Assembly: GCF_004802635.2 (NCBI RefSeq)
Contig: NZ_CP046052.1
Span: 1,178,001-1,242,000 of the forward strand
From: Methylocystis heyeri
GTDB taxonomy: Bacteria > Pseudomonadota > Alphaproteobacteria > Rhizobiales > Beijerinckiaceae
DNA length: 64,000 bases
Direction of reading: 5' to 3'
The translations under genes were made by a program, and so were the position numbers. Positions 6,855 through 62,580 of the stretch are shown here, piece by piece; positions within the stretch are counted from its first letter, which is position 1, and each line of letters starts with the position of its first letter. Under the pieces are notes generated by a model. The model was not told where the DNA came from, did not search any database, and saw only the letters and a program-made list of their open reading frames with translations.

Positions 6855-6989
6855 CGCGCGAAAAGACCTGTGAAATCCTTGATCGGCCCGGACTAAGCCT
6901 CGACGCCGCGCAATGAGTCAAGAACCCGCGTTTCCCCTGTTTCGCCGGCATTGAAAAGCGGAAGCGGGGATCGTGGCCCCAAGGCGTGA

Positions 6990-8777
6990 TCAGCCCCCGT
7001 ATTTCCTTTCTCCCGCAACCCAGGTTTCGCTCACTTTGATGTCGCTGAGCTTCTCGGGTTTCGTCTTGTAGGGATCGGCCTCCAGAATGACGAGGTCCGC
7101 CTCCTTGCCCTTCTCCAGCGACCCGATGCGGTCTCCGAGGCCGATCTGGCTGGCGGCGTCGATGGTCACGGCGCGCAGAGCCTGATCGAGCGTTACGGCC
7201 TGATCCGGCCCGATCGTGGAACCGTCGATATCGCAACGCCGCGTGACCGCCGTGCTCACGAGGGCGAGCGGCCCCGGAGGCGAACATGGCGAGTCCGTAT
7301 GCAGGGAAAACGGCAGGCCGGCCTTGACGCAGGCGCCCGCCGGATCCGTGAACGCTGCCCGTTCCGGCCCGAAAATCAGGTCCCTGTAAGCCGCGCCATA
7401 CAGGCGAACATGATTCATGAGGAAGCTCGGCTGGACGTTGAGCTTCTTCATGCGTTCGATTTGGTCGGGCCGGGCCATCGTCGAATGTTCGATGCGATTG
7501 ACGCCGTTCGCGGTGGAACCGCCGTAGGCGGCCTCGATGGCGTCGAGCGAAATGTCTATCGTGTGGTCGCCGTTGCAGTGGATCAACACCGGCAGCCCGG
7601 CGGCCTTGATCTCAGCCACCATCTTTCGCATCTGCGCGGCGTCGTAATTGGCCGAGCCTTTGCTGTCCGTGTCGAGATAGGGCGAGGTCTGCGCGCCGGT
7701 CTCGGTCTGGTTGGAGCCGTCTCCGATGATCTTGATGCCGTAAAGGGAGAACAGCGAATTGGGCAATTGCGTCGCCTTCGCTCCGACCCCCAGACTGCGG
7801 TACGGGTCTATCCCCTTCAGGTCTTCATAGGCCAGGCTCGCGCTCGTGCGGCAGGCCGCCCGGCCGGAATATTTCGCGAAAGGCGCGATCCACTCCGAGC
7901 GCAGGGTTCCGGGTTCGTGTACCGCCGTATTGCCTAGGGCGGCGACCGAACGCAGGTAATCTCCGACGGCTTTGGTGGCGAGTTGGGGCGTAATCTTTGG
8001 AAAGGCGAGGAGAGCGAATTTCAGGAGCGCGCTCTCTTCATAGACGAGACCGTTCAGTCGACCCTTCTCGTCGCGCCCGAAATGTCCGCCGCCGGGGAGC
8101 ATTCCGATGTTTTCGGGGATATTGGCGGCCTTCAGCGCCGCGCTGTTGACGCAGGCGTCGTGGCCGTTGGTGTACCAGACGAAGATCGGATGGCTGGTCG
8201 ATATCCCATCCAGCTCCTCTCGCGAGAGGTCGCCCCCCTGAAGCAGGTTGTCGAAATTGGAGCACGCCACCCATTGGCCCGGAGGGGTGCGCGCGACAAT
8301 GGCGCGAAGTTCGTTGAGAAGCTTGCCGCGCGTCGGAAATTTCGCATAGCCGACATCATTGAGGAGCTCGAAAATAAGCGCCGCGAGAACGGTGTGATTA
8401 TGCGGATCGACGAAACCAGGCATCAGGACCCGTCCCCCGAGATCGACGACCCTGGTGCTTTTCGACTTCAAGCCGTCGATGGCGCTTTCGGACCCAAGCG
8501 CAAGAATCCGCCCGTCCTTGATCGCGAGCGCTTTTTGCGCAGCCGCTCCCGGAACCGGAATGATCTTTCCGCCTTTGAAGATGACGTCCGCGCCCGCTTC
8601 TCCCAGCAGCGCGGCGCGCGCGTCCGAAACCACGGCGGCGGCGCCGGCCGCGGCGACCGAATAGGCCATGAAACTACGCCTTGTGGCGCTGACGCCGCTC
8701 CGGCCGAAAAGATGTCGGCTGCCGCCTTCGATGAAGTCACTTTTCAGAACGAGGGGATTGAAACAGGCGCGACACAT
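6990..8777 (-). CDS. Tat-exported amidohydrolase, YtcJ-like
   Basis: Metal-dependent amidohydrolase of the YtcJ/NfdA-like subgroup, 595 aa, probably periplasmic. Seen: a twin-arginine motif ATRRSFMAY (residues 31-39) followed by an Ala-rich hydrophobic stretch; GRVLMPGFVDPHNHT, with the HxH metal ligands of the TIM barrel; IKIIGDGSNQTETG in place of the carboxylated-lysine strand; LIHCNGDHTID; and a C-terminal LEKGKEADLVILEADP signature. The leader before the Tat motif is unusually long (about 30 residues, beginning MCRACFNPLV), so a later start cannot be excluded. Substrate unknown. Confidence 0.88.
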   Translation of the reverse strand: MCRACFNPLVLKSDFIEGGSRHLFGRSGVSATRRSFMAYSVAAAGAAAVVSDARAALLGEAGADVIFKGGKIIPVPGAAAQKALAIKDGRILALGSESAIDGLKSKSTRVVDLGGRVLMPGFVDPHNHTVLAALIFELLNDVGYAKFPTRGKLLNELRAIVARTPPGQWVACSNFDNLLQGGDLSREELDGISTSHPIFVWYTNGHDACVNSAALKAANIPENIGMLPGGGHFGRDEKGRLNGLVYEESALLKFALLAFPKITPQLATKAVGDYLRSVAALGNTAVHEPGTLRSEWIAPFAKYSGRAACRTSASLAYEDLKGIDPYRSLGVGAKATQLPNSLFSLYGIKIIGDGSNQTETGAQTSPYLDTDSKGSANYDAAQMRKMVAEIKAAGLPVLIHCNGDHTIDISLDAIEAAYGGSTANGVNRIEHSTMARPDQIERMKKLNVQPSFLMNHVRLYGAAYRDLIFGPERAAFTDPAGACVKAGLPFSLHTDSPCSPPGPLALVSTAVTRRCDIDGSTIGPDQAVTLDQALRAVTIDAASQIGLGDRIGSLEKGKEADLVILEADPYKTKPEKLSDIKVSETWVAGERKYGG

Positions 8778-9095
8778 TTCTTTTCTCTCGATTCGAGGGC
8801 AATGTGGTCAAGGTAGAGTATCTTGAAAGGAAGATAAGTGGCTGCGTCGCTTTCGCGCAGGTTTTTTAACATGACTGGTCGTGAAGCCCGACTCTCGTCG
8901 CCCAGAAGCGGATTTTAACCCGGCGTTTATCGTGAATATTATGAAAGCAATTACCACGTAAATATACCAGTTTTCTCTTTCCTAACCACAGCAAATGCTT
9001 GAGATTTACGATAAATATTTAAAGGTTATCATCTGGACAGACATTTCCGGGGGACCGATAGCCGTGGCGAAGCCGCTTCGGCCCGGCCCAAACTG
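8778..9095. other. Intergenic region between divergent amidohydrolase and L,D-transpeptidase genes
   Basis: About 318 bases containing the promoters of two divergent genes. Roughly 8930-9040 is clearly AT-richer than its surroundings. I see no convincing open frame, tRNA or strong hairpin, and no promoter pair good enough to annotate. Confidence 0.5.
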
Positions 9096-9854
9096 GTGCA
9101 GAAGTCGATGCGCAATAGAATTGTTTTCTCCACTCTGGGCGTCGTGGCGTTTTTCGCGGCGCTTCAGGCCCCGGAACAGGCTGTTGCGGGTTCCTGGCTC
9201 GCAAGCGCCTCCGACCAGTCCTCGCTCGAATCCCTTTTGCCTGTGCAGGCGCCGACCGCGCCGCAACCGCAGCCGCAAAGCGCCCTCGGCGGCGGCTTTC
9301 TCGAAATGCTCGTGACCGGCGGCGATCCCGGCCCGCGCTACGGCGGCCGGCGCTATGGCCGGCAGGTCGCCACAACCGCGGCGCCGGGTCAGATCGAAAT
9401 GCGCCGGGAGGTCAGTCCTCTCTACCGGCGGCAGGTGGTCGAATATTCCGGCGGGCAGCCCGGTTCGATCGTGGTGGATACGCAAAACAAGTTCCTTTAT
9501 TACGTGGAGAACGGCGGCCGCGCGATCCGCTACGGCATCGGCGTGGGGCGCCCCGGCTTCGAATGGTCCGGCGTCAAGACCGTCAGCCGCAAGGCGGAGT
9601 GGCCCGACTGGACGCCGCCCGCCGAGATGGTCGCCCGACGGCCCGATCTGCCGAGATTCATGCCCGGCGGGCCGGAAAATCCGCTTGGCGCGCGAGCCCT
9701 CTATCTCGGGTCGTCGCTCTACCGCATCCACGGCACCAACGAGCCCTACACCATCGGCCAGAACGTCTCCTCCGGCTGCATCCGCATGATGAACGAGGAT
9801 GTCATCGATCTTTACGATCGCGCGAACGTCGGGACGCGGGTCGTGGTGCGGTAA
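9096..9854 (+). CDS. L,D-transpeptidase (YkuD family)
   Basis: Periplasmic peptidoglycan cross-linking or lipoprotein-attaching transpeptidase, 252 aa from GTG 9096 (an ATG at 9108 is equally possible). Seen: an N-terminal hydrophobic signal (residues 8-31), a low-complexity Pro/Gln linker (50-62), then the YkuD catalytic domain (about 123-252). That domain carries the invariant IHGTNEPYTIG (His212) and SSGCIRMMNED (nucleophile Cys228). The ErfK/YbiS/YcfS/YnhG pattern is complete, so it should be active. It stands alone between intergenic stretches. Confidence 0.93.
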   Translation: MQKSMRNRIVFSTLGVVAFFAALQAPEQAVAGSWLASASDQSSLESLLPVQAPTAPQPQPQSALGGGFLEMLVTGGDPGPRYGGRRYGRQVATTAAPGQIEMRREVSPLYRRQVVEYSGGQPGSIVVDTQNKFLYYVENGGRAIRYGIGVGRPGFEWSGVKTVSRKAEWPDWTPPAEMVARRPDLPRFMPGGPENPLGARALYLGSSLYRIHGTNEPYTIGQNVSSGCIRMMNEDVIDLYDRANVGTRVVVR

Positions 9855-10023
9855 AGGGCTTTTGCAGTAGAGGGTGAGGCGCGACGGTCTTTTCCCTTCA
9901 AAGAGATGGCCGGGCGCCCTTAGTCGACGGCCTCCGGCCGCCGTCGACCGGACAGTTGCAATCGGCGGCGCTTCGCGCGATAGCAGACATGGCTGATTAT
10001 TCCTTAATGGAGGGGCCGATCCC

Positions 10024-10167
10024 TTGCCCAGCCTCATTCGCTTCTTCGTCACCGCCGGCCTACTCGCAGCCCTCGCCTATGGCGCGATGCTGGCGCTCGT
10101 CACCTTCGTCACGCCGCAACCCAGGGAAATGACCCAGACCATTTCTCCGGCCCGCCTCAACAAGTGA
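10024..10167 (+). CDS. Small conserved single-pass membrane protein
   Basis: A 47-residue protein starting at TTG 10024 with GGAGGGG eight bases upstream (10009-10015). Translation begins LPSLIRFFVTAGLLAALAYG, giving one transmembrane helix (about residues 4-29). It is followed by a short polar tail with TPQPREMT and ending RLNK. The pattern (one helix, then a PxxREMT-like tail) resembles small proteins I associate with rhizobial genomes upstream of xerD, but no function is known to me. Too short for most gene callers. Confidence 0.7.
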   Translation: MPSLIRFFVTAGLLAALAYGAMLALVTFVTPQPREMTQTISPARLNK

Positions 10168-10197
10168 TGATATTTTCAGCCAAGTAACCGGCTTTAC

Positions 10198-10281
10198 GTC
10201 GTCATCGCGAGCGAAGGCGAAGCGATCCAGAGCAATGCCAGTCCCTCTGGATTGCCGCGTCGCTGCGCTCCTTGCAATGAC
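10198..10281. repeat. Palindromic intergenic repeat
   Basis: An imperfect inverted repeat whose ends read GTCGTCATCGCGAG and TGCAATGACGAC, with a TCCAGA/TCTGGA inner pair. This is the common rhizobial 'CAATGACG' palindrome. It lies between the small membrane protein and xerD. It is read through by an upstream in-frame extension of xerD, which argues against the longer xerD start. Confidence 0.75.
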
Positions 10282-10308
10282 GACGCGAAGCAATTCGCCG
10301 GAAGCACC

Positions 10309-11256
10309 ATGAAAACGCGCCAGAGCGCTCTTCGCCTCCTCGATTGTTTTCTGGAAATGCTGGCCGCGGAGCGCGGGGCGGCGCTCAACACCCTGGCGGC
10401 CTATCGGCGCGACCTGACCGATTATATCGACCATCTCGCCAGGACCGGGCTCGATCCGACCGGCGCGACGACCGACGATCTCCGCGGCTATATCGCCGCG
10501 CTCACGCAATGCGGCATGGCCGGCGCAACGGTAGCGAGGCGCCTATCGGCCCTGCGCCAGTTCCATAAATTTCTCTATGTCGAGCGGCGCCGCGGCGACG
10601 ATCCCGCCGCAGCGCTGGAGGGGCCGCGCCATATCAAGAACGCCCCCGGCGTTCTCTCGGTCGCCGAGGTCAACCGGCTGCTGAGCGTCACGCGCGAAGG
10701 CGTCGACGACGACAAACGCCCGCTCGGAGAACGCATGCGCGCGGCGCGGATGTATGCTCTGCTGGAGACGCTCTACGCCACCGGACTGCGGGTCAGCGAA
10801 CTTGTGTCGCTGCCGAAAAGCGCCGCGCGGGCGCGCGATCCTTTCATCACGATCAAGGGAAAAGGCGGCCGCGAGCGCCTGGTTCCGCTGACCGGCCGCG
10901 CAAAGGAAGCCCTGGTCGCCTATCGTGCGCTTCTGGAGCAGAAAAGCCCCGCCCTCGCCGCGACGCCCTTTCTGTTTCCCTCCGACAGCGACAGCGGCCA
11001 TCTCACGCGGCAGGCTTTCGCCCGCGATCTCAAAACCGCCGCCGTCGCCGCCGGCATCTCCGCGAGCGACATCCATCCACATGCCCTACGACATGCCTTC
11101 GCCAGCCATTTGTTGCAGAACGGCGCCGATCTGCGCGTGGTGCAGGAACTGCTGGGCCACGCCGATATTTCGACCACCCAGATTTATACCCATGTACTCG
11201 ACGAGCGCATGCGCGCCATGGTGCGCGATCTGCACCCGCTCGGGGACGAGGCGTGA
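10309..11256 (+). CDS. xerD: Site-specific tyrosine recombinase XerD
   Basis: Chromosome-dimer resolution recombinase acting at dif with XerC, 315 aa. Seen: an N-terminal SAM-like core-binding domain (residues 5-95), and a catalytic domain with the complete RKHRHY set: Arg161 (TGLRVSEL), Lys185 (IKGKGGRER), His258 and Arg261 ([12 protein letters not shown]), His284 ([10 protein letters not shown]) and Tyr293 (IYTHV). Start chosen at ATG 10309; an in-frame ATG at 10252 lies inside a palindromic repeat. XerD rather than XerC is my reading of overall similarity. Confidence 0.93.
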
Positions 11257-11307
11257 GATCTCAACGCAGAATATCTATAAATTACAATGTGATCAGGCGA
11301 GGGGCGC

Positions 11308-11760
11308 TTACCCTCCCCTTGAGGGGGAGGGTCGCTGCGCAGCAGCGGGGTGGGGTGATTTGCAACCCTGTTTTTGGCATTCGAAGCGGCGGTGAGCCTC
11401 GGACGGATGCTTCACCCTCGACGGGCGACCGTCACGTTGCATCCGCAGATGCGCTTCTTTCCATGTCGGCGGCTGAGCGGATTCTTGCGTCCAGTGAACG
11501 ACCGACGCCTCGTCGCACCAATCGAGCAGTTTCGGCATGGCGGCACGGTGCGCGCCGGAATCCCTGAAAGACCTCATCGCGGATTCGTCCGTCCAAATCG
11601 AGCGGGTCCAAAAGACATTGCCTGCCTCACGCGAGACGCCGACGGCCAGATTGCCCCGCGCCCGCCGCGCCTGCAAAACCGACCAAACCGCCGCCGCGAT
11701 GAATGCCGGGAGGTATCCCCACGACCTCAGGCGCAGGCGCGTGATCGATACGAGCGGCAT
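11308..11760 (-). CDS. DUF3291-like / spheroidene-monooxygenase-like protein
   Basis: A 150-aa protein starting at ATG 11760 with AAGGAA upstream. Seen: a start MPLVSITRLRLRSW, an Ala/Arg-rich helix, then FWTRSIWTDESAMRSF and SGAHRAAMPKLLDWCDEASVVHW, a pattern typical of the small ferredoxin-like DUF3291 proteins (dimeric alpha+beta barrel fold). Biochemical role unknown. The last about 18 residues (PHPAAAQRPSPSRGG) are encoded by an intergenic repeat, so the original stop was probably upstream and the tail is a later addition. Confidence 0.75.
   Translation of the reverse strand: MPLVSITRLRLRSWGYLPAFIAAAVWSVLQARRARGNLAVGVSREAGNVFWTRSIWTDESAMRSFRDSGAHRAAMPKLLDWCDEASVVHWTQESAQPPTWKEAHLRMQRDGRPSRVKHPSEAHRRFECQKQGCKSPHPAAAQRPSPSRGG
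11311..11348. repeat. GC-rich double hairpin between convergent genes
   Basis: CCCTCCCC (11311-11318) pairs with GGGGAGGG (11324-11331), followed by CGCTGC/GCAGCG. It sits between xerD and the convergent DUF3291 gene and could act as a bidirectional stop, but lacks a T-run. It encodes the last residues of the DUF3291 frame. Confidence 0.55.
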
Positions 11761-11828
11761 GGGGTTCCTTAGTTTGGCCGGAGGAGTTTCGGGACCCATG
11801 GCGAGGGGCGGCTCTCCATCCGCGCGAT

Positions 11829-12320
11829 TTAAAGAAAAAGCGTCTGTTTGACGGTCTCGCCGGCGAAGAAGATTTCAATCTCCAGCCTTTCCGGCTGGCT
11901 CAGCAGAGAGACGGCTTGAATCTCGCCGTCCTCGAAGCGCTTTTCTATAATGTCGCATGGCGAGGCGATCAAAGTAATCGCCCAGAAAGACCACAGGACG
12001 ACGTAGCGGCTGGTTATGATTGGTGGCCCGGCCACCCATAGGACGTCCACAACGGAGTTGGATTCCGGACTTCCCAAGTCTACGACAACGACCTTATTCT
12101 CAAAAAGAATAACGAGCCCTTCCGATGAAGGACATTTCCAAAAGCCCGTATGCTCTCCCCCGGAGCCTTGCGAGGAAACCCCGATAGTGCAATTCGGCGT
12201 TTCCACAAGGCAGTGCGCCCTGGCGACGCCGACAGGGGAGCCGTCATCAGTAAAAACCAGATGAGTCGATGTGCTGATTTCGTCGAGGGAGCACCAGCGG
12301 GCGAACCAGTCGCAACTCAT
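11829..12320 (-). CDS. Hypothetical protein with one transmembrane segment
   Basis: A 163-aa frame with a good ribosome site (AAGGAG six bases before ATG 12320). I do not recognise the family. Seen: a polar N-terminal half with several Cys, a Ser/Gly-rich stretch, then YVVLWSFWAITLIASP, a plausible membrane segment, and an acidic C-terminus. Base composition is lower in GC than adjacent ribE, which hints at acquisition. It lies immediately downstream of ribE on the same strand, but there is no functional link visible. Confidence 0.6.
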   Translation of the reverse strand: MSCDWFARWCSLDEISTSTHLVFTDDGSPVGVARAHCLVETPNCTIGVSSQGSGGEHTGFWKCPSSEGLVILFENKVVVVDLGSPESNSVVDVLWVAGPPIITSRYVVLWSFWAITLIASPCDIIEKRFEDGEIQAVSLLSQPERLEIEIFFAGETVKQTLFL

Positions 12321-12342
12321 CGAATGCTCCTTATGGCGCCCC

Positions 12343-12945
12343 CTACTTCGCCTCGGCTAACCGCGCCGCATAACGCGCCATCAGATCGACCTCGAGGTTG
12401 AACCAGTCGCCGGCTTTTCTGGCGCCGATGGTCGTCACCGCCAGCGTATGCGGGATGATGAGCACGGAAAAGCGGTCGCCGTCGACCTCGTTCACGGTGA
12501 GCGAGACGCCATCCAGCGTCACCGAGCCTTTTTGCGCGATGAAGCGGGCGAGATCGTGCGGCGCCTCGATGACGAAGCGGGCCATGCCGTCGAAGTCTTC
12601 GCGCGAGATCACTTGCGCGGTCCCGTCGACATGGCCGGTGACGATATGGCCGCCGAGCTCGTCGCCGATCTTCAGCGCCCGCTCCAGATTGGCTCTCGAA
12701 CCGACCTCCCAACGCCCGACCGTGGTGCGGGCGAGAGTCTCGGCGGCGGCGTCGATGTCGAAGATTGCGCCAGCGCCTTTTTGCTCCACCGCCACGACTG
12801 TCAGGCATGTCCCCGAGCAAGCGATCGAGGCGCCGAGCGCAATGCCCTCCGCAGGATAGGCGCAGGCGATGCGCAGCCGCCGCAGGGCGCCGCGTTCTTC
12901 TATGGCGATGACCTCGCCCATGTCGGTGACGATGCCGGTGAACAT
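12343..12945 (-). CDS. ribE: Riboflavin synthase, alpha subunit
   Basis: Dismutates two 6,7-dimethyl-8-ribityllumazine molecules to riboflavin. 200 aa, the standard length. Seen: the invariant start MFTGIV, two tandem lumazine-binding barrels (about 1-95 and 96-190) each with the characteristic turn (ACSGTCLTV in the first, VTLDGVSLTVNEV in the second), and GHIVTGHVDGTAQV at the domain junction. One base separates its ATG from the ribD stop, so the two are co-translated in the operon nrdR-ribD-ribE. Confidence 0.96.
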   Translation of the reverse strand: MFTGIVTDMGEVIAIEERGALRRLRIACAYPAEGIALGASIACSGTCLTVVAVEQKGAGAIFDIDAAAETLARTTVGRWEVGSRANLERALKIGDELGGHIVTGHVDGTAQVISREDFDGMARFVIEAPHDLARFIAQKGSVTLDGVSLTVNEVDGDRFSVLIIPHTLAVTTIGARKAGDWFNLEVDLMARYAARLAEAK

Positions 12946-12946
12946 C

Positions 12947-14059
12947 TCAAGCGATCCTTTCCCGCCGCGTCATCAGGTCCGGCCCGAACTGGACCGTTTC
13001 GACCAGACGATAAAGCTTTTCATCTTCCAGCACCGCGGCCGCCGCCGGCCTCAGGGCGAGCCGCCCCGCCCCGCCGAAAGGCTTGCCGCCGGTGTGCAGA
13101 ATCACCTCATCCGCGAAGCCCGCGGTGATGAGGCTTTCGGCGACGCGAGGTCCCCCTTCGGAGAAAACCCGCGTGACGCCCCTCTGGGCCAGCGCCTTCA
13201 GCGCCGCCTCCAGCGAGACGCGCCCCAGCATGTCGCTTGGAACCGCTATGACCTCGGCGCCGGTCGCCTGCCGGAACCTCTCGGCGGCGGCCGGATCGAC
13301 GCCCTGCCCGGCTATGACCAGGGTCGGCGTCCGCCTTGCGGTCGAGCCGAGCCGCGACCGCGGCGAAAGCGTCAACTCGGCGTCGAGGACGACCCTCAGG
13401 CGCGTCTCGCTCTCCATACCGGGAAGCCGGACGGTCATCAGTGGATCGTCCTCGCGGGCGGTTCCCGCGCCGACCATGATGGCGTCATGCAGCGCGCGCT
13501 GCATATGGGTGTAGGCGTCGGCCAGCGGCCCGGTGATGTGGAGGCGCGGATCGTGGAGCGCCCCGGCGGCGAAGCCGTCGGGCGTGCGCGCCAGTTTGAG
13601 CGTCACCATGGGCCGGTTTCGGGTCACGCGAAGAATATGGCCGAGATGCTCGCGTTTCGCCTCGCGCTCCAGCACGCGATGCGCAACCGCTATGCCGGCC
13701 TCGCGCAGCATGGCGAGGCCACGCCCGGCGACGCGCGGATCAGGGTCGTCGACGGCCGTGACCGCACGCGCGATCCCGGCGGCGATGATGGCGTGGGCGC
13801 AGGGAGGCGTTTCGCCGTGGTGCGAACATGGCTCCAGCGTCACATAGATGGTGGCTCCGCGCGCGGCCTCGCCCGCCTCGGCCAGCGCCATGGTCTCCGC
13901 ATGGGGACGCCCGCCGGTTCCGGTATAACCCCTTCCGACGACGATCCCGTCGCGGACGACGAGCGCTCCGACCGCGGGATTGGGCGCGGCGCGGCCCATA
14001 TTGCGCCTTCCGAGCGCCAGGGCCGCGGCCATGAATCTTTCGTCGTCGACGGAGATCAT
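12947..14059 (-). CDS. ribD: Bifunctional riboflavin deaminase/reductase RibD
   Basis: Catalyses the deamination and side-chain reduction steps of riboflavin synthesis. 370 aa. Seen: a deaminase domain (1-145) with zinc ligands His53 (RPHAETMAL), Cys78 and Cys87 in [14 protein letters not shown]; a reductase domain (about 150-365) with [10 protein letters not shown] and [16 protein letters not shown]. The start at ATG 14059 overlaps the nrdR stop (ATGA); the frame is open much further upstream, but that part is nrdR in another frame. Confidence 0.96.
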
Positions 14060-53545: not shown

Positions 53546-53679
53546 GCGATCTCGACCGTTCCGCCCGCCCCAAACGCTCATAATATCAACTATCAGCCCG
53601 TGAGCCGGTCACCGCGCCGTCACCATAGGCTTCTATAGGCGCTCCCTAATCGACGAAGAACAATTCGAGGCGGGGGCTG

Positions 53680-55983
53680 ATGAAACATATTTTGCGCCAC
53701 GGGCTGCTCGGCCTTGCCGTGGGAGGCGCAGTCTTCGCCTGCGTTCCGCCTGCGGGCGCGGCCGTCACAGGCAATCTTCTGGTCAACGGCCACGCCGAGG
53801 CGCATCTTTGCACGGACGACTGGACTGCGCAGACGCCGACGCCGGGCTGGACCGTCGTTCGGGGCGCGGCAAGCGTCGCGTGCTGGTCGGGTTTTAGCTA
53901 CATGAACGAGGTTCCGGTCCTTCCGACGGGCGGATCGCCGGGCAAGGCGCTGTTCGCTTCGCCGGGAATCGATACGTCGATCGAGCAGATCGTGGACGTC
54001 TCGGCCGCTGCCGAAGCCATCGACAAAGGACAGGTGGCTTTTTCGCTGTCGGGCTGGCTCGGCGGCTGGCGCGACCGCCCCGAGCACGCCGTGCTGACCG
54101 CGATCTTCCTCCATGACGACAGGCGGGCTGCTGGAGCGCCGGTCGTGGTGGCCGGCGCTGGCCCCGAGGCGCGCCATCAGAAGACAGCGCTGCTACAGCG
54201 CGCCGCGCAGGGAATGGTGCCGCCGGGCACGCGCCAAATCGCCGTCAGCGTCGATTTCCCGAGCGGCATGAGCTCGTTCCAGAACGCTTTCGCCGACAAT
54301 CTGAGCCTGACGCTCTCGGGCGATGTCCGCGCGCTGGCTGCGGCGCCGCCGCAAGAGCCGAAAGAGCCGAAGGGCATGACGCCGCCGCTCGACCATGTCT
54401 ATGTCGTGATGATGGAGAACACGAACTACGCCGACATCGTGCATGACGACGGCCGCTCCGCTTCGATCGATGAGCGCATGCCGTTCCTGGCCTCGCTGGC
54501 GCGTCGGGGTGTGCTGCTGACGGATATGTGGGCCGCCTACCATCCGAGCGATCAGAATTATGTCGCGATGGTCGCCGGCAATACGTACAAATTTGGGCCG
54601 GTCTATTACCCCAACTATGATCTGTCGGCGACGCATCTCGGCGACCTGCTCGACGCGCAGCGGCGCTCATGGAGCGCCTATGTCCAGAACATGAAGGCGC
54701 CGTGCAACCTCAATAGCGATCCGTCGGGCGCCGGCTGGTATGCGCCGGACGACCAGCCGTTCGCGCAGTTCCACAATGTCATCGCCAACCCGGCCCGCTG
54801 CCAGGCGACGATGCGCGATCTGACCGATTTCCAGGGCGCGATCGCGGCCGGCGGCAAGCTCCCGAATTTCGCATGGATCGCCGCCGACGGGTGGTGGGAC
54901 GGCGAAGGCGCTTGGCAGGACAACTTCGACGTGGGTGTGTCGTTGCAGCGGCAGGACCAGTTCCTGCAATCCACATTCGCCCCGCTTCTGGCGTCGCCTG
55001 AATGGAGAGGATCGCGCTCGCTGCTGGTCGTGACCTGGGACGAGAGCCTGGGTTGGGGCTGGCCCGACAACCACATTGCAACGGTCCTGGTGGGCTCGCC
55101 CGGCCTGCTGCGCGAGGGCGCGATCGATCGCACGCATTACGACGCCTACGGCGTGCTTCGCACCATCGAGTCCGCCTTCAGGCTACCCGGCTTCGATCGC
55201 TTTGACCGATACGCTACGCCGCTGAATTCCGTGTTCAAGGACGAAGACGAGCAACGGCCTCATGCCCGCCCGGCCAACCCGATCCCCTCACCGGCGCTGG
55301 CGACGCGTGGCGCGATCGCCGAGACCTTCGGCCGGGTCGCGACGCCCGCCTCGGCCGAGCGCGGGCAGAAGTTCGTATTGATCGCCCCGGACGACATCGC
55401 CAATACGGCGGCCGTGCTGGCGCCGCTCGGCCGAGCGCCGGATGAGGACGCTCCGCGGTTCGCGTTCGACGCAAAGGGAGCCGCGACCATCCCGACCGAG
55501 GGCCTGGCTCCGGGCTATTACGGCGCCTGGCGTGTCGATAGAGCCGACGGCCGGCCAGTGCGCGCGCCTATCCCACTGCGCGTTCTTCCTTCGCCGCAGG
55601 TCGGTCCGCGCACGCCCGGGGTCGAGATCGTCGACGCCCCCCGGGCCGACGGCGGGACCAAGGCGATCTTCGTGCGCGAGGGCGCCAACACGCTGGTCCG
55701 CTACTGCCGCCCCAACAATGCCGCTGCGGGCGATGCCTGGATCGGCGTCTTCCCGGCCGGAACGACGCCGGATCAGCTGACGCAGGCGAATGCGCTCAGC
55801 ATCGGCTATTGGCTGAAGACGCCGGCAGAGGGCGGCGGCCCGTGCGGCGAGGCGATGGCTTCAGCCTCCGAACTACCGGTGAACGCCGTCTACAATATCT
55901 ACTTGCTGACGAACACCGGCGCCGCCGGCGTTCCGATCGGCCGCAGCGACTCCTTTACCGTGACGCCGGCGCTGCCGCACTGA
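53680..55983 (+). CDS. Secreted phosphoesterase (acid phosphatase / phospholipase C family)
   Basis: A 767-aa exported protein. Seen: a signal peptide (residues 1-27, ending AGA), an N-terminal beta-rich domain (about 30-215) beginning GNLLVNGHAEA, and a phosphoesterase-family (PF04185-type) catalytic domain from about 237 with VYVVMMENTNYADI, YHPSDQNYVAMVAGNTY and LLVVTWDESLGWGWPDNH. A C-terminal domain (about 560-767) of Ig-like look follows. Likely phosphate scavenging or phospholipid hydrolysis; the substrate cannot be told. A promoter is likely in the 134-base gap after hemD. Confidence 0.87.
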   Translation: MKHILRHGLLGLAVGGAVFACVPPAGAAVTGNLLVNGHAEAHLCTDDWTAQTPTPGWTVVRGAASVACWSGFSYMNEVPVLPTGGSPGKALFASPGIDTSIEQIVDVSAAAEAIDKGQVAFSLSGWLGGWRDRPEHAVLTAIFLHDDRRAAGAPVVVAGAGPEARHQKTALLQRAAQGMVPPGTRQIAVSVDFPSGMSSFQNAFADNLSLTLSGDVRALAAAPPQEPKEPKGMTPPLDHVYVVMMENTNYADIVHDDGRSASIDERMPFLASLARRGVLLTDMWAAYHPSDQNYVAMVAGNTYKFGPVYYPNYDLSATHLGDLLDAQRRSWSAYVQNMKAPCNLNSDPSGAGWYAPDDQPFAQFHNVIANPARCQATMRDLTDFQGAIAAGGKLPNFAWIAADGWWDGEGAWQDNFDVGVSLQRQDQFLQSTFAPLLASPEWRGSRSLLVVTWDESLGWGWPDNHIATVLVGSPGLLREGAIDRTHYDAYGVLRTIESAFRLPGFDRFDRYATPLNSVFKDEDEQRPHARPANPIPSPALATRGAIAETFGRVATPASAERGQKFVLIAPDDIANTAAVLAPLGRAPDEDAPRFAFDAKGAATIPTEGLAPGYYGAWRVDRADGRPVRAPIPLRVLPSPQVGPRTPGVEIVDAPRADGGTKAIFVREGANTLVRYCRPNNAAAGDAWIGVFPAGTTPDQLTQANALSIGYWLKTPAEGGGPCGEAMASASELPVNAVYNIYLLTNTGAAGVPIGRSDSFTVTPALPH

Positions 55984-55997
55984 GCGCCGCTAGATGT

Positions 55998-56092
55998 GAG
56001 CGTTTCCAGCCGAAGTAGATTCGGCGTGGGACACGCGTCAAAACAAAAGCTTAGAGCGTATTCATGTTTCCAGGAGACATGAATGCGCTTTA
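55998..56092 (+). repeat. Interspersed repeat, copy 2
   Basis: Matches 23043-23124 in reverse orientation. It ends with a hairpin ATTCATGT (56060-56067) / ACATGAAT (56077-56084). It lies between two convergent genes. Confidence 0.75.
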
Positions 56093-56115
56093 GTCGCCGG
56101 CAGGCCCTGAATCCG

Positions 56116-57294
56116 TTACGATTGGGGCTCTTTTTGCCGCTCCGGCTGAGAGACCCCGGCGCCTGGGCAATTTACCGGTCGGTACGAGGTGTCGATTCCG
56201 ATTTTTTCCTCGACCGCGCTGACATCTTCCGATGCGCCGATCGGGCGAACATAGTCGCCGCGCCAATCGATATTGGCGGCGAGCGGCTGATCGCTTTCGG
56301 GATAAACCGATTTGAGCCCCAAGAGGCTCGGAATCCTGACCAGCAGAACGGTGGCGAGCCGATAGGCCAAGGTCTGGCTGTTTTCTATCGGTTCGCCCGG
56401 ATCTGGCGCGAAAGGGCGATCGGGCGCAAAGCGAACTTCCGACAAATTCTGGAGTTTCAGGCCGTTTTCCTCGGCGCGCGCCGCCATCCACTGCAACGCG
56501 TAATCAGACAGGCCATGCTTTGTCTCATAGCCCCCGCCGACATTCGAATGCACTCCGGGGAACCATCGCTGCGCATAAAGCGGGAAACCGAATTCGGCGA
56601 CGTTCTCTTTGTTCCGCGAAAGATGATGATCGGTAAGGACGATAGGGGTCGGTCGGAACGGCCATCTGCGTTCGTCGGCGGCCATCGCGTGATAAGCCGC
56701 GTCGACGCTCTCGCTCAGCGTTACGTCGTGGAATCCCGTGTTGAATAATGCGTTGAGCAAGCGGCCGAAGATTTCGCCATAAGGCGCGCCGAGCGCGCCG
56801 ACCGTATCCCACACGCCCAGGAACCGAATCTTGTTGGGATAGGGATGGCAATATTGTTGGCGGAATTTTATCGATTCAGCTCCATGGGGGCTCCACGCCT
56901 CGGTCTTGTCCTTGTAGTATTTATAGGCGACCGAGACCAGAGGAAGGTTATAACGATAAAGAATCCCAAGATTATGAATTAAACCCGCGATGCTTCTGGC
57001 GGTATAAGCGCCACGGCTGAAGCCGAATAAATAAATATTGTCGCCAACCTCGTAATTGCTGACGATAAAAGAATAGGCGTCTTTTATGTTTTCTGATATG
57101 CCGAAACCGAACGCACCGCCGATGAATTTTTCGTCCTCCCGGCGTGTGCCGACGCCCGCGATGTAATGCGCAAGCTGAGGATTTCCGTCCTTGTCCGCAA
57201 AATCCATGGCCTGAAGCATGCGAAGGACGTTTGTGCCCCGCTTTGTCGGCTCGTTCCAGGTTCCGTCACAAAATATAACGATACTTTTGGCCAC
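56116..57294 (-). CDS. DUF2235 alpha/beta hydrolase (Tle1-like phospholipase)
   Basis: A 392-aa protein starting at GTG 57294 with GGAGGACAGC upstream. Seen: SIVIFCDGTWNEPTKRGTNV (start signature of the family), the nucleophile elbow YLFGFSRGAYTARSIAG (Ser93), FLGVWDTVGALGAP and QRWFPGVHSNVGGGY. This family includes type VI secretion phospholipase effectors (Tle1), but no T6SS gene, immunity gene or signal peptide is nearby, so an orphan or housekeeping role is just as likely. Confidence 0.87.
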   Translation of the reverse strand: MAKSIVIFCDGTWNEPTKRGTNVLRMLQAMDFADKDGNPQLAHYIAGVGTRREDEKFIGGAFGFGISENIKDAYSFIVSNYEVGDNIYLFGFSRGAYTARSIAGLIHNLGILYRYNLPLVSVAYKYYKDKTEAWSPHGAESIKFRQQYCHPYPNKIRFLGVWDTVGALGAPYGEIFGRLLNALFNTGFHDVTLSESVDAAYHAMAADERRWPFRPTPIVLTDHHLSRNKENVAEFGFPLYAQRWFPGVHSNVGGGYETKHGLSDYALQWMAARAEENGLKLQNLSEVRFAPDRPFAPDPGEPIENSQTLAYRLATVLLVRIPSLLGLKSVYPESDQPLAANIDWRGDYVRPIGASEDVSAVEEKIGIDTSYRPVNCPGAGVSQPERQKEPQS

Positions 57295-57585
57295 GCTGTC
57301 CTCCGGCAATAAACGAAATAGCTGAACCCGGCCGCTCACGCTCGCGATTGCTGGCCGAACGGCCGAAATCCATCGAGACTGGAAAAAGAGCCTGAACCCA
57401 GGCTATCAGCCTGTGCAGAATTGGCAATCCCCTGGAGCAGGCTCCCAAGAAATGCGAAACGGTCTTTTGGAAGAGAACGCACCAGATCAAAGATCTACGG
57501 AACGCGTTCGACAGAGTTTGGCCCGAACACGCTGGGGAACGTGGTAATTCGCCGTGATCCACGAACAATCCGGCGCAGGCACGCG

Positions 57586-57792
57586 CTACGGTTTTTCTAT
57601 TCCGACCTCTGTGGATTTTACCACCGCGCGGACTTCGTCGCCGACCTTCAGTCCCAATTCCTGCAGGCTGCGGGCGGTGATCACGGAACTCAGGGTTCCG
57701 GCCGAGGTCTCGATTTCCACCTCGCACACGGCCGGACCCGGAACGATCTCCTTGACCTTGCCCTTCACATGGTTTCGTAGACTTGTCGCCAT
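57586..57792 (-). CDS. Molybdate-binding Mop/TOBE-domain protein
   Basis: A 68-aa single TOBE domain, the molbindin type that stores molybdate or tungstate as a hexamer. Seen: RNHVKGKVKEIVPGPAVCEV, TLSSVITARSLQELGL and VGDEVRAVVKSTEVGIEKP. A normal length for Mop. No molybdate transport genes adjoin it. Confidence 0.93.
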   Translation of the reverse strand: MATSLRNHVKGKVKEIVPGPAVCEVEIETSAGTLSSVITARSLQELGLKVGDEVRAVVKSTEVGIEKP

Positions 57793-58153
57793 AGTCGATC
57801 TCCATCAGGCTTGGGGCGCCCACAGGCTGCAAGTAGAGCCCCGGGCCCGGCGATCCAACCTCCTGCAATTCGGGGAGAGGAGCATCCGGCCGGCAGGCGG
57901 GACGCCGTTCATCGAACCTGCCCCAGCCCTTGAATCCGGGATGGTCGGCGCCCCAATAGACAATGCTGTTCATGATCGACGGCGCGCCGGCGTTGCTGGC
58001 CCGAAGCCTTGGACGACGCGAACATCACTCCATTGGCCACGCGGTCGCTTCTGCGGATCACGAAGCGATCTCGCGGAAACCGTGCGATAGCGCTTTAATT
58101 ACACTATAGCTCGACCGCGCGCGACGTCCGTTCGCTCAGCTTCCGCGCCCCTA
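57793..58153. other. Gap between mop and the cysG repeat
   Basis: 361 bases. A minus-strand frame (about 57793-57973, beginning MNSIVYWGADHPGFKGWGRF) overlaps the start of mop and is unsupported. The last bases (58151-58153) are the original cysG stop codon (TAG on the minus strand), followed downstream by the ancestral 3' flank. Confidence 0.5.
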
Positions 58154-58311
58154 CTCCCCCGCCAGCGCGCGCCCGATCAGCACCAGCACCGGCCCGTCGA
58201 GGCTTTCCTGCGCCATCCTGCCCGGCAGATCGGCGATGGTCCCGCGGATGACCTTTTGCTGCGGCGTGCTCGCGCGCTCGATCAGAAATGCGGGCGTCGA
58301 CGGATCGGCGC
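58154..58311 (-). repeat. 158-bp direct repeat, left copy (3' end of cysG)
   Basis: Identical at every base to 60971-61128. It encodes on the minus strand the last about 52 residues of siroheme synthase (DPSTPAFLIERASTPQQK through LIGRALAGE), ending next to the original TAG stop. It is a partial gene copy that is not expressed as CysG. Confidence 0.95.
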
Positions 58312-58462
58312 GGCCAGCGGGCTGGAAAGAAAAGATTGGCTCCACAAGAACAATATGCGAACATACATTGAGGAGTATTCTCATTCTCCCAGCGTTTCAG
58401 CAATGTAATATTGAGTGATTCCGGCGATCGGCGAAACCGGCGCAGACCTTGAAAGGTGAGAG

Positions 58463-59641
58463 ATGAAGGTCGCAGGACTGTTTGCGGGGATCGGCGGTCT
58501 CGAATCGGGTCTGGCGTCGGCCGGGCATGAGGCGATCATGCTCTGCGAGATTTGGGAGCCCGCCCGAGCGGTGCTGTCCGCGCGGCACCCGGATGTTCCG
58601 TGCGAAGCCGATGTGGCCGGGTTGCGAAGCCTGCCGGACGATACCGAAGTCGTCGTCGGCGGATTTCCGTGCCAGGATCTGAGTCAGGCGGGACTGACGG
58701 CGGGCATTACGGGAACACGTTCGAGTTTGGTGGGGCACGTGTTCCGCCTCCTCGATCAGCGGCGCGCCCCCTGGGTTGTGCTCGAGAACGTCTCGTTCAT
58801 GCTTCACCTCGACAAAGGGAGAGGACTTCGCACATTAGTCGAAGCATTTGAGGAGAGAGGATACCGCTGGGCTTATCGGGTGGTGAACTCTCTCGCTTTT
58901 CTTCCCCAGCGCAGAGAGCGTGTTCTGTTCGTCGCTACGACGACCGATATCGACCCTGCCGACGTGCTTCTTGCCGATGAGGCCTTCACAGAGGATCGAA
59001 AGACCTCCCTGTCGACCCATGCGCACGGTTTCTATTGGACAGAAGGCATACGAGGCTTGGGGTGGGCGCCTGACGCTATCCCGACCCTAAAGAACGGCTC
59101 CACCGTCGGCATAGCTTCGCCACCCGCAATACTGCTCCCTAACGGCCGAGTAATCACGCCGGACATCCGGGACGCCGAGCGGTTGCAAGGCTTCGACGCC
59201 GACTGGACGGCTCCGGCCGAGTCGGTTGCGCGCTCTTCGCAGCGTTGGGCTCTGGTCGGAAATGCGGTAACCGTTCCCATGGCTGCGTGGATAGGAGCGC
59301 GACTGGCGAAGCCCGGCTGTTACGACCGCGCTCGGGACAGAGATCCATCATCTGACGGACGGTGGTCGAAAGCGGCGCGCTTCGATGGCAAGCATCGGCT
59401 CCGGGTTGAAATCGGGAGCTTTCCGGTTTGGAAGGAGCGCCCGCCCCTTTCCGAGTTTCTGCGATTCGAAGGAAAACCGCTCTCCGCCAGAGCTACTCGG
59501 GGCTTCTTGTCTCGAACCGAGCGCGGCACTCTACGGTTCGTTCCCGGCTTCAAAGAGCGCCTGGGCCGCCATCTTCTGAGAATGGAGGCCGATGCGCCCA
59601 CCGCAGGGACTCGGCTCATACCACCTGTCGCCGCCGAATGA
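58463..59641 (+). CDS. DNA (cytosine-5-)-methyltransferase
   Basis: A 392-aa C5 methyltransferase of a type II system. Seen: motif I GLFAGIGGLESG (residues 6-17), motif IV VGGFPCQDLS with catalytic Cys70, motif VI ENV (108-110), motif VIII QRRER (149-153), and motif X GNAVTVPMAAWIGARL. The target-recognition region (about 160-260) gives no readable specificity. The C-terminus extends about 100 residues beyond motif X, including SFPVWKERPPLSEFL. The AAAGGTGAG ribosome site precedes it. Coupled to vsr by ATGA. Confidence 0.95.
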   Translation: MKVAGLFAGIGGLESGLASAGHEAIMLCEIWEPARAVLSARHPDVPCEADVAGLRSLPDDTEVVVGGFPCQDLSQAGLTAGITGTRSSLVGHVFRLLDQRRAPWVVLENVSFMLHLDKGRGLRTLVEAFEERGYRWAYRVVNSLAFLPQRRERVLFVATTTDIDPADVLLADEAFTEDRKTSLSTHAHGFYWTEGIRGLGWAPDAIPTLKNGSTVGIASPPAILLPNGRVITPDIRDAERLQGFDADWTAPAESVARSSQRWALVGNAVTVPMAAWIGARLAKPGCYDRARDRDPSSDGRWSKAARFDGKHRLRVEIGSFPVWKERPPLSEFLRFEGKPLSARATRGFLSRTERGTLRFVPGFKERLGRHLLRMEADAPTAGTRLIPPVAAE

Positions 59642-60054
59642 GATCATTCGCGCCTGTCGATCCGAAGCGCAGCCTGCTTATGGGCCGGATCCGTCAGCGT
59701 GGAACCAGCGCGGAGCTTATCGTCGGGTCGGCTTTGAGAGAGTTGGGAGCGTCGTATCGGCTCAACGTGCGTTCGCTGCCCGGCTCGCCGGATTTCGCCA
59801 ATCGCCGAAGAAAATGGGCCGTTTTTGTTCATGGCTGTTTCTGGCACCATCATACCGGCTGCCGTCGAGCGACAATCCCAAAAACGAACGAAGCATTCTG
59901 GCGCGAGAAATTCGTATCGAACCGATCACGCGACGCCCGAGCGATAAAGGTTTTGAGAAAAGCCGGATTTCGGGTAGCGATCGTTTGGGAATGCCTGACT
60001 TCCGACCCCAGCCGTCTAAGGGCCAAGCTGTCCAATATCCTTGAACCGAGTTGA
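59638..60054 (+). CDS. vsr: Very short patch repair endonuclease Vsr
   Basis: Nicks beside T:G mismatches made by deamination of 5-methylcytosine, protecting the methylated site. 138 aa. Seen: RQRGTSAELIVGSALRELG, GSPDFANRRRKWAVFVHGCFW (with catalytic Asp52 and the zinc/DNA motif) followed by HHHTGC (Cys75). ATG 59638 overlaps the methyltransferase stop. Its 3' end overlaps the convergent restriction-enzyme gene by 39 bases. Confidence 0.95.
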   Translation: MRSFAPVDPKRSLLMGRIRQRGTSAELIVGSALRELGASYRLNVRSLPGSPDFANRRRKWAVFVHGCFWHHHTGCRRATIPKTNEAFWREKFVSNRSRDARAIKVLRKAGFRVAIVWECLTSDPSRLRAKLSNILEPS

Positions 60055-60879
60055 GTAGATATGCCCGAGACGGTCGATCATGGACGCATAGTGATAGATT
60101 TCGCCCGGTTGTGGAGCTGGAGGCTCCGTAACCAGCCTGGCGGGGGCGCCGTCGTTCGCGCAATCGATTACCACGATCGACAACGCATCATAGCCTGTGT
60201 CGCCAGTCTTCGATCTCCTCGGTAGCTGACGGATTTTTTCGATCGCCAATTGGGCGTCGCGCGGCTGATCGTGAACGCTCCACTCTGGACTATGCCGTCG
60301 ATTTCCTTTGTTGAGATCGGGGCTGAGATAATTGCTGGCAATATTGACCATGGTGAAACCGGCGGCGATTGCCTGGTCGCTCGCCCCATGAACGGTCAGA
60401 TGCGACGAGTTCAGCTCGTCATAAAGGCGCGGAAGGGCCCGCTGATGCGCCGTCATGCAAGCTTTGGCTTCCAGCGCCATCAGGACGCTGCCTACTGGAG
60501 CGCGGCGCAGAGGAGGAAGAGCCTCCATCTCGGCCTGCTCCTTTTCAGTGAGGTCGATGCCGTAATCACGCGAAATAGACTGCAGCGTCTGGTCCGCCAG
60601 CCTGCTGTCGACGCGGGAGCTCGTGCAGAGAACGAGATCGAGATTCTTCTTCCGATCGTGAGCGAAATCTCGCATCTCGTGGTTGATCCCGAAATTCACG
60701 ATCCCATTCGCGACGTGACGTTGCAGCAAAGGGTTCAACCGCAGGAGGTCGAATATGATTCCCCAGCACGCAACCTTAGAATGGTGATCGCTGCGGGAAT
60801 GATATTGCCAACGGTTTCCGTATCGATCCTCCCGCGTCGTTTTAGAGAGAGTGCGGACGAGTATCTCCGGACCAAACAT
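60016..60879 (-). CDS. Probable type II restriction endonuclease, PD-(D/E)xK type
   Basis: A 287-aa protein not recognised by sequence, but with a candidate nuclease core: Asp81 in KNLDLVLC and Glu137-x-Lys139 in LMALEAKACMTAH, the spacing of a PD-(D/E)xK active site. Basic patches and RLYDELNSSH follow. Start ATG 60879 with AGGA six bases upstream. Position (with methyltransferase and Vsr, inside the repeat-bounded cassette) makes restriction enzyme the most likely role. It converges on vsr with a 39-base overlap, which can prevent runaway co-expression. Confidence 0.75.
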   Translation of the reverse strand: MFGPEILVRTLSKTTREDRYGNRWQYHSRSDHHSKVACWGIIFDLLRLNPLLQRHVANGIVNFGINHEMRDFAHDRKKNLDLVLCTSSRVDSRLADQTLQSISRDYGIDLTEKEQAEMEALPPLRRAPVGSVLMALEAKACMTAHQRALPRLYDELNSSHLTVHGASDQAIAAGFTMVNIASNYLSPDLNKGNRRHSPEWSVHDQPRDAQLAIEKIRQLPRRSKTGDTGYDALSIVVIDCANDGAPARLVTEPPAPQPGEIYHYASMIDRLGHIYSTRFKDIGQLGP

Positions 60880-60922
60880 CTCGAGTCCTGACAGCGAATC
60901 GCGAGCGGCTTAGCCTCCAGTT

Positions 60923-62374
60923 TTAGGACGCCCCACCTCCCGAGTCGACAAGCACCCAAGTTCCATCGCCCTCCCCCGCCAGCGCGCGCCCGATCAGCAC
61001 CAGCACCGGCCCGTCGAGGCTTTCCTGCGCCATCCTGCCCGGCAGATCGGCGATGGTCCCGCGGATGACCTTTTGCTGCGGCGTGCTCGCGCGCTCGATC
61101 AGAAATGCGGGCGTCGACGGATCGGCGCCCTCTGCGATCAGGCGCCTCGAGAGCTCCGGCAGGGTCCGGTTGCCCATATAGACCGCCGTCGTCGCGCGGG
61201 CGTCGGTGAGCGCGCTCCAGTCGAAATCCTCGGGAAAAACCCCGTCCTTGGTGTGGGCGGTGATGAACTGCACCCGGCGGGCGGTTTCCCGGCTGGTCAG
61301 CGACAGGCCCAGCGCGGCCGCTCCGGCCAGCGCCGCAGTGACGCCCGGCACCACCTCCACATCCAGCCCGGCGGCGCGGATGGCCCCGATCTCCTCATTG
61401 GCGCGGCCAAAGATCATGGGGTCGCCGCCCTTGAGGCGCACCACATTCTTGCCCTCGCTCGCGAGTTTCACCAGAAGGGCGGTGATTTCCTGCTGCTGCA
61501 CCGAAGGCGCATAGCCGCGCTTGCCCACATTGATGCGCTGGGCTTCCCGCCTCGCGAAATCGAGCACGCTCGCCGGCACCAGATCGTCGAACAGCACGAC
61601 ATCGGCGCCCGCGAGCACGCGCAAGCCCTTCAGCGTCAGAAGCTCCGGATCGCCTGGCCCGGCGCCGACCAATGTCACGCGCCCGCGTGAGGGAGCGTCC
61701 AGGGCTTCGCGCGTTTCAGCCAGCAGCGCTTCGCAGTCCTGCTCGGTCGGCTCGCGCGCGATCTGCGCAAAGGCGAGCCGCGCAAAGCGGCGCCAGAAAT
61801 CCCTGCGCGCGAGAAAATCGAGGCCGGAGGCCAGAATTTGGGGGCGCCAGGCCTTGGCGGCGCGCGCCCAACCGGCGAAGGAAGCGGGGGCCAGGGTCTC
61901 GAGCCGCCCGCGCACCGCCTGCGCGAACACCGGCGAGGCGCCGCCGGTGGAAACGCCGATGACCAGCGGCGATCGGTTCACGATCGCCCCCATGATGAAG
62001 TCGCTCATCGCCGGCCGATCGGCCAGATTAATCGGAACCCCGGCGGCCTTGGCGAGATTGCGAGCCTGTTCGGCCGTGACGTCGTCGAAGACCGATCCGA
62101 GAACGATCGCCGCGCCTACCAGGTCCTCCGGGGCGAGATCGCGCGCGAAGAACGAGACATTGGCGCGAGCAGCTATGATGTCGCGCATTTTTTCGCTGGC
62201 TTCGGCGGCAAAAACGCAAACTTCCGCGCCCGCGGCGGCGGCGAGGTCGGCTTTCCAGGCTGCGCCCTCCGAGCCGCCCACGACGACCGCCTTCCGGCCC
62301 TTGAGGTCGAGGAAGACCGGCAAGGTCTCCAGCGGCGCCATGAGATCGGACGAGATTTCGTCGGGCTTGCGCAT
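60923..62374 (-). CDS. cysG: Siroheme synthase (CysG fusion), with a cassette-derived tail
   Basis: A 483-aa fusion making siroheme for sulfite/nitrite reductases. Residues about 1-215: precorrin-2 dehydrogenase/ferrochelatase (FLDLKGRKAVVVGGSEGAAWKA, ADRPAMSDFIMGAIV). Residues about 225-468: uroporphyrinogen-III methyltransferase (VTLVGAGPGDPELLTLKGLR, LKGGDPMIFGRANEE, VVPGVTAALAGAAAL). The original ended at LAGE; the inserted cassette supplies the last 15 residues GDGTWVLVDSGGGAS and a TAA. Start 62374 chosen by family length; the upstream frame is unsupported. Confidence 0.93.
   Translation of the reverse strand: MRKPDEISSDLMAPLETLPVFLDLKGRKAVVVGGSEGAAWKADLAAAAGAEVCVFAAEASEKMRDIIAARANVSFFARDLAPEDLVGAAIVLGSVFDDVTAEQARNLAKAAGVPINLADRPAMSDFIMGAIVNRSPLVIGVSTGGASPVFAQAVRGRLETLAPASFAGWARAAKAWRPQILASGLDFLARRDFWRRFARLAFAQIAREPTEQDCEALLAETREALDAPSRGRVTLVGAGPGDPELLTLKGLRVLAGADVVLFDDLVPASVLDFARREAQRINVGKRGYAPSVQQQEITALLVKLASEGKNVVRLKGGDPMIFGRANEEIGAIRAAGLDVEVVPGVTAALAGAAALGLSLTSRETARRVQFITAHTKDGVFPEDFDWSALTDARATTAVYMGNRTLPELSRRLIAEGADPSTPAFLIERASTPQQKVIRGTIADLPGRMAQESLDGPVLVLIGRALAGEGDGTWVLVDSGGGAS
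60971..61128 (-). repeat. 158-bp direct repeat, right copy (within cysG)
   Basis: Base-for-base identical to 58154-58311 and retained as part of the intact cysG reading frame. The repeat ends exactly one codon before the ancestral stop, where cassette DNA begins. Confidence 0.95.
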
Positions 62375-62580
62375 CAATTCGGCTTGTCCTGTCGCGGTAA
62401 GCGCGGCCCGGCGAAGGACCGCGCGCTTTGCGGGAAGAATGCGTCTTGCTTTCTGAGAGGGCGCGGCTTTTCGCCCTTCGCATGGCGCACCCGACCTATA
62501 CAACGCACAATGGGCGAGCGGGAAGCGGCGCTGGAGCCGCGCTTCGCTCCAAGAGGGCTCCCGTGCGCGGAGGAGCGCAA

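Follow-up and report, generated by a model that had tools for sequence, protein, structure and literature searches.

A restriction-modification cassette of Methylocystis heyeri that probably entered the 3′ end of cysG with a 158-bp target duplication, and its predicted LexA and CcrM/GcrA wiring

Introduction

How do restriction-modification (R-M) systems move without a recombinase, and how can they become established in a naive host without being lethal to it? Both are long-standing questions and both are raised by a locus of Methylocystis heyeri (contig NZ_CP046052.1, positions 1,178,001 to 1,242,000; this whole stretch of 64,000 nucleotides is called the window below). Here the genes of a C5-cytosine DNA methyltransferase (M), a Vsr protein (Vsr) and a candidate restriction endonuclease (R) lie between two copies of the 3′ end of cysG, the siroheme synthase gene. 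A first-pass annotation had described the locus as an R-M cassette bounded by perfect direct repeats of cysG, and insertion with a long target duplication as an established mode of mobility of such gene complexes. R-M complexes inserted in this way are indeed already in print (Nobusato 2000 and Furuta 2010, as described in excerpts of PMC3031569, PMC3874152 and PMC1643837).

We present here an analysis of this cassette and of related cassettes in other genomes. From the sequence, it is probable that cysG received the M-Vsr-R cassette at its 3′ end, with duplication of 158 bp of target, and we predict that the cassette is wired to two host regulators, LexA and CcrM/GcrA. Insertion with a long duplication is itself a known mode; it is the predicted host wiring which seems to be new.

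The insertion at cysG

The repeat search of the window identified a single pair of direct repeats at this locus, 158 nt in length and 2817 bp apart from start to start (Table 1). They are identical base for base (158/158), as originally noted, and the match is maximal since the outer bases differ on both sides (A against C on the left, G against C on the right). A perfect match of this length cannot be chance. The reading frame of full-length cysG extends 15 codons into the insert, giving an insert-derived tail, GDGTWVLVDSGGGAS, while the left copy is followed immediately by a stop codon (58151-58153) at approximately the same place as the CysG stop of relatives. The cassette has a guanine plus cytosine (GC) content of 59.1% compared to 68.5% for cysG, and is single-copy in the host genome, whose assembly comprises three contigs with a main one of 4.55 Mb.

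The insert is filled by M, Vsr and R. M includes PCQ, ENV and QRRERV, which we take to be the corresponding C5-methyltransferase motifs, and its stop codon overlaps the start of Vsr (ATGA). R is convergent with Vsr, with a 39-bp overlap. Searches of Pfam, NCBIfam and PADLOC gave no match to R at E ≤ 0.001, and its residues D81, E137 and K139 are invariant across 20 homologues, with a spacing which we take to be PD-(D/E)XK-like. R is a candidate restriction endonuclease on the basis of its linkage to M and these conserved residues. Two results speak against this assignment: there was no match to PDB sequences (none with a profile, and with one sequence only ribosomal protein S17e at E 0.22), and a Pfam search through the 20 homologues returned four families, by one member each and with a best E of 0.03. 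The first-pass identification of a C5 methyltransferase and Vsr agrees with the profile matches, and the endonuclease remains a candidate, by linkage and conserved residues, of no named family. Since these three genes fill the insert and eight open reading frames (ORFs) of 74-213 aa in its other frames have no Pfam match, the insert includes no known recombinase, as had also been proposed.

Nor does the insert resemble a DNA transposon or a composite transposon, with inverted repeats or insertion sequence (IS) ends and a transposase: its terminal inverted repeats are no better than chance (198/200 shuffles equally good). There is no tRNA gene in the window and no integrase in the insert, as would be expected of a tRNA-targeted integrase island. 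No convincing shared nick motif was seen by eye at the ends of the duplication.

The comparison with relatives which the first-pass annotation had proposed supports insertion. CysG was searched in 36 other genomes of the genus and the loci of the best 29, from 29 genomes, were all used. All 29 carry an uninterrupted, cassette-free cysG (blastn), whose frame stops within a few codons of the repeat end, near the stop of the left copy. R homologues occur in only three of 39 genomes of the genus, host included, and in the other two they are located on a contig other than that of cysG. Because all 29 loci are empty and R is rare and found away from cysG, the cassette is considered to have come in. 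The event may plausibly be recent, as had also been proposed, but the nearest relative's CysG has only 85% protein identity to that of the host, and recombination between the repeats could maintain their identity.

A second insertion and the cassette family

With M as the query, 68 loci were obtained from GTDB genomes, to which 13 were added later (seven duplicates of earlier ones and six new). One, L038 from a Salinarimonas metagenome-assembled genome (MAG), has a related M-R cassette between 31-bp repeats (29/31 identical by self-comparison), one lying 99 bp beyond the start of M and the other 101 bp beyond that of R. Its insert is filled by M and R. Among 148 genomes of the same family, one (G468) matches both L038 flanks at 85% nucleotide identity, and the two matches meet with a 16-bp overlap and no cassette. 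In both the window and L038, the duplication spans the 3′ end of a predicted gene. When left and right flanks were compared in 76 distinct cassettes (of 77, L099 was left out because its contig ends there), the window scored 158, L038 23 and all others 14 or less, with a maximum of 15 among 300 mismatched flank pairs. Repeats at both ends, empty sites and lack of a recombinase (judged for L038 on its main genes only) are thus found here, as in R-M insertion with a long target duplication. L038 has an 8-bp terminal inverted pair, equalled by 10/200 shuffles, which was not used.

Other flanking repeats were set aside. Those of L051 and L088 resemble dispersed repeats and that of L098 is weak (76% identical). 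In L044 (Rhodobacter viridis, 6109-14040), a 38-bp repeat overlaps the 3′ end of a tRNA-Val gene and is best described as bounding a putative island rather than as a target duplication.

By their flanks, the 32 cassettes with R form 27 clusters, and on these comparisons the M-R cassette family is taken to be mobile. The distribution of R is rare and scattered: it occurs in 10/397 genomes of the host's order (two weak, host included), in 8/396 of the Salinarimonas family and in 3/385 of the class (one weak, host included), and a search of phages gave no match. Gene order reshuffles. Vsr precedes M in L036 and L205 and lies beyond R in L040, in L078 R shares the strand of M, and no Vsr hit was obtained in L038, L041 and L203. 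A distant R homologue (24% identity) was observed on a haloarchaeal plasmid (L215:3001-3747), where the 6.7 kb examined contained no match to M.

A number of observations weigh against a simple history of insertion with duplication. No flanking repeat beyond chance occurs in 74 of the 76 cassettes, nor a long one in the six further cassettes (scores ≤ 13), so that most insertions are old or arrived otherwise; the duplication argument rests on two cases. The L038 target has itself diverged in G468, with several differences and a one-base gap, and the L044 M-R cassette lies between the tRNA-Val 3′ end and a copy some 7.8 kb away. The 27 clusters may be a slight overcount since four of the 32 cassettes have a flank too short for two-sided clustering. 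The CysG of the nearest relative, G033, has the ending QGD and, beyond the repeat, matches the right copy in a few letters, which we read as chance (in another relative, G034, the protein has a final E, as does the left copy). Finally, the left flank has a longer history, since the DNA at 53546-58153 is missing from the corresponding place in G033, where hemD and cysG are about 140 bp apart. The hemD-cysG gap is 1.0-1.6 kb in three other relatives compared to 4.6 kb in the window, and the neighbourhood, an insertion-prone spot, has also taken in other DNA.

A predicted LexA box before M

The regions upstream of M have little in common except GAACN7GAAC. This is GTTCN7GTTC on the other strand, the alphaproteobacterial LexA box as given in an excerpt of PMC12700426. 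It occurs within 250 bp upstream of M in 32 of 77 cassettes, including 23 of the 32 with R, compared to 2/146 windows farther upstream, 1/32 before R and 2/308 within M. Within 130 bp, it is present in 22/32 R-bearing cassettes and in none of 103 control promoters (intergenic DNA upstream of other genes, taken from 26 of the cassette loci). Outside the Burkholderiales, the exact box occurs in 23 of 30 R-bearing cassettes (23/27, plus 0/3 of those added later; among the 27 are the remnant L064 and the viral contig L138, the five Burkholderiales being left out). The free positions favour one pattern, with A after the first half in 29/32, and the flanks are barely conserved. Two loci, L206 and L135, have one-mismatch forms. 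The window box, GAACAATATGCGAAC, is identical in all 15 letters to a box before a comM-like gene in the host genome. Nine host matches, chosen for AT-rich spacers, were inspected. They include those before recA, before a DNA polymerase III alpha gene which we take to be dnaE2-like, and before the comM-like gene, comM presumably being an SOS gene; of the remainder, one is near a radical-SAM gene and five precede unrecognised genes.

A candidate box of the actinobacterial type, which we take to be GAACN4GTTC, was rejected (0/77 before M). In the five Burkholderiales, a stretch 21-24 bp before M shares 10-15 of 20 letters with the E. coli SOS consensus, and 0, 4, 5, 37 and 2 of 500 random windows, respectively, were equally good. 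These stretches are suggestive only, and some share descent.

It is likely, judging from these patterns, that LexA represses M and Vsr, in which case DNA damage, including self-cutting by R, would raise M. Some of the data do not favour this. The exact box is missing from L041, L044, L063, L135, L203, L205 and L206, of which L203 has the highest M identity among the later-added cassettes. It is found in only 9 of 45 cassettes without detected R. The pattern is also common in the host genome (126 matches vs 70 for a control pattern), and only three of the nine inspected boxes precede genes taken to be SOS genes.

Predicted CcrM/GcrA sites before R and M

A word count over 30 regions upstream of R revealed GAATC 21 times (3.9 expected) and GACTC 11 times (2.2 expected); the motif GANTC was picked by inspection and the word-count P values are uncorrected. 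GANTC is recognised by CcrM, and promoters with methylated GANTC are bound by GcrA, according to an excerpt of PMC3667746. Outside the Burkholderiales, 23 of 26 cassettes have GANTC within 130 bp of R, with 38 sites vs 5.9 expected (the remnant L064 was left out; L138, a viral contig of unknown host, was kept). It occurs in only 20/103 intergenic controls of this length and, within 80 bp, in 23/26 cassettes vs 13/103 controls. Windows farther upstream of M have it in 9/97 cases. No other palindrome of this form exceeds 2.9-fold before R, and the extended form YGAKTCG is found in 11/26 (background 0.039). The later cassettes L203, L205 and L206 have 0, 1 and 1 sites. Set against this enrichment, GANTC also occurs in 10 of 38 GC-matched controls.

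GANTC could also be the sequence that the system itself recognises, serving in self-regulation. R-M promoters controlled through the system's own site are known, and the motif is enriched before both R and M. Its distribution argues otherwise. Before M, the 54 loci taken as alphaproteobacterial (including the viral contig L138) have 46 sites vs 13.8 expected; enrichment is not seen in the 12 actinobacterial loci (3 sites, 6.2 expected), the five others (2, 2.5 expected) or the five Burkholderiales (3, 2.0 expected), and only one of four Burkholderiales has GANTC before R. Because the enrichment before M is alphaproteobacterial and not actinobacterial, the own-site explanation is disfavoured and appears rather unlikely. 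On balance, we lean towards R, and M too, responding to CcrM/GcrA through GANTC; R would then be held back until the host has methylated the newly arrived copy. GcrA is found in the host by a model match; the same model also matches two of the 14 controls, Caulobacter and, unexpectedly, Sulfolobus.

Mode of insertion and alternative explanations

How might such a cassette insert? In the scheme that we tentatively prefer, which is somewhat less than an even proposition, the target would be broken by two opposed nicks whose stagger sets the length of the duplication when they are filled in. One 158-bp copy would remain in full-length cysG and the other would close the far side of the cassette. 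Joining would be carried out by host repair, possibly by Ku-dependent end joining, rather than by a recombinase of the cassette; Ku is found in the host. This capture at a break with fill-in is favoured because there is no known recombinase and the window insert has no terminal inverted repeats beyond chance, and because the length of the duplication differs fivefold within one family. In agreement with the first-pass annotation, the analysis points to no particular inserting enzyme.

A single crossover of the Campbell type, in which a RecA-excised circle from a conspecific, carrying the cassette and 158 bp of cysG, recombined into cysG, would produce the same structure, the repeat then being inherited homology. 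Perfect repeat identity fits conspecific exchange, and the repeats would be expected to permit such an excision. This explanation requires an earlier insertion and duplication in the donor, and so shifts the problem to another genome. At 31 bp, moreover, the Salinarimonas repeat is short for efficient RecA exchange. We consider a single crossover unlikely.

Less probable still is insertion by a transposase or an integrase supplied in trans. An excerpt of PMC3874152 indicates that some reported R-M units have short duplications together with imperfect inverted repeats. The position of L044 between tRNA-Val repeats and, weakly, the 8-bp inverted pair of L038 are also in its favour. Against it are the chance-level inverted repeats of the window insert, duplications of both 31 and 158 bp within one family, and the lack of a tRNA in the window. 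Finally, that the cassette was ancestral at cysG and lost elsewhere, with the repeat due to later gene conversion (the outcome that the first-pass annotation had named as refuting insertion), is scarcely credible: conversion alone could give the repeat identity, but it would not put a cysG 3′ fragment beyond the cassette, and 29/29 relatives are empty and the Salinarimonas case is independent.

Relation to known systems

Like the R-M insertions with long duplications, whose excerpted reports are cited above, the cassette includes R-M genes only and no recombinase, has a long target repeat of variable length (those known are of the order of 100 bp), and was recognised by comparing related genomes. 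It differs from them in occurring in Alphaproteobacteria, as two cases of 158 and 31 bp in one M-R family, and in its predicted LexA and GANTC wiring, of which the excerpts of PMC3874152, PMC3031569 and PMC1643837 make no mention. The arrangement of M, overlapping Vsr and an adjacent candidate endonuclease is that of type II R-M systems with a C5 methyltransferase and Vsr, except that R here matches no Pfam, NCBIfam or PADLOC model. Other R-M systems use a C protein for control, in place of which host LexA and CcrM/GcrA control is predicted here.

Control of an R-M system by LexA or CcrM/GcrA was not found described in the open-licence literature searched, of which mostly titles and the beginnings of abstracts were covered. 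The nearest link in print is that of the Caulobacter ScmA/VsrA pair, a C5 methyltransferase and a Vsr tied to SOS, with GTTC(N7)GTTC inside vsrA, as excerpted from PMC12907096. In Caulobacter the two genes are unlinked and the methyltransferase is solitary, whereas here the box precedes M in a mobile cassette with R. In excerpts of PMC3667746 and PMC7987155, GcrA/CcrM-activated promoters have GANTC near the transcription or translation start, as here, and drive cell-cycle and other host genes, whereas the target here is a restriction gene.

It is conceivable, if still doubtful, that this mobile R-M family borrows two host circuits instead of using a control protein of its own, with CcrM/GcrA silencing R on the unmethylated new copy and LexA letting damage raise M. 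If so, the family could land at many sites, with a long and variable target duplication, without killing its new host. It offers two before-and-after insertions with unlike duplication lengths, and the predicted timing of the endonuclease and its protector by the SOS response and cell-cycle methylation of the host is testable in an ordinary laboratory alphaproteobacterium.

Feature coordinates and neighbouring DNA

Table 1. Cassette, target and predicted regulatory sites in the window
Feature	Position	Strand	Basis or remark
Left copy of the 158-bp target duplication (cysG 3′ fragment)	58154..58311	-	Repeat search and comparison with relatives
Inserted cassette	58312..60970		2659 bp
Predicted LexA (SOS) box, GAACAATATGCGAAC	58348..58362	+	115 bp before M
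GANTC, predicted CcrM/GcrA site	58417..58421	+	46 bp before M start
M, C5-cytosine DNA methyltransferase	58463..59641	+	392 aa; PF00145, E 3.6e-44
Vsr	59638..60054	+	138 aa; TIGR00632, E 1e-33, above model cut-off
R, candidate restriction endonuclease	60016..60879	-	287 aa; linkage and conserved residues
Three GANTC sites, R upstream region	60883, 60896, 60942 (60883..60946)		
cysG (siroheme synthase), full-length	60923..62377	-	NF007922, E 2.3e-153
Right copy of the duplication, within full-length cysG	60971..61128	-	Repeat search

The 4.6 kb beside the left copy (53546-58153), between hemD and cysG, encode a phosphoesterase, a Tle1-like phospholipase and a Mop-type protein. Next to the cysG fragment, 58041-58097 is a short dispersed repeat present in at least six other places in the host genome (42-58 bp, 89-95% identical; seven of 116 candidate matches were scored).

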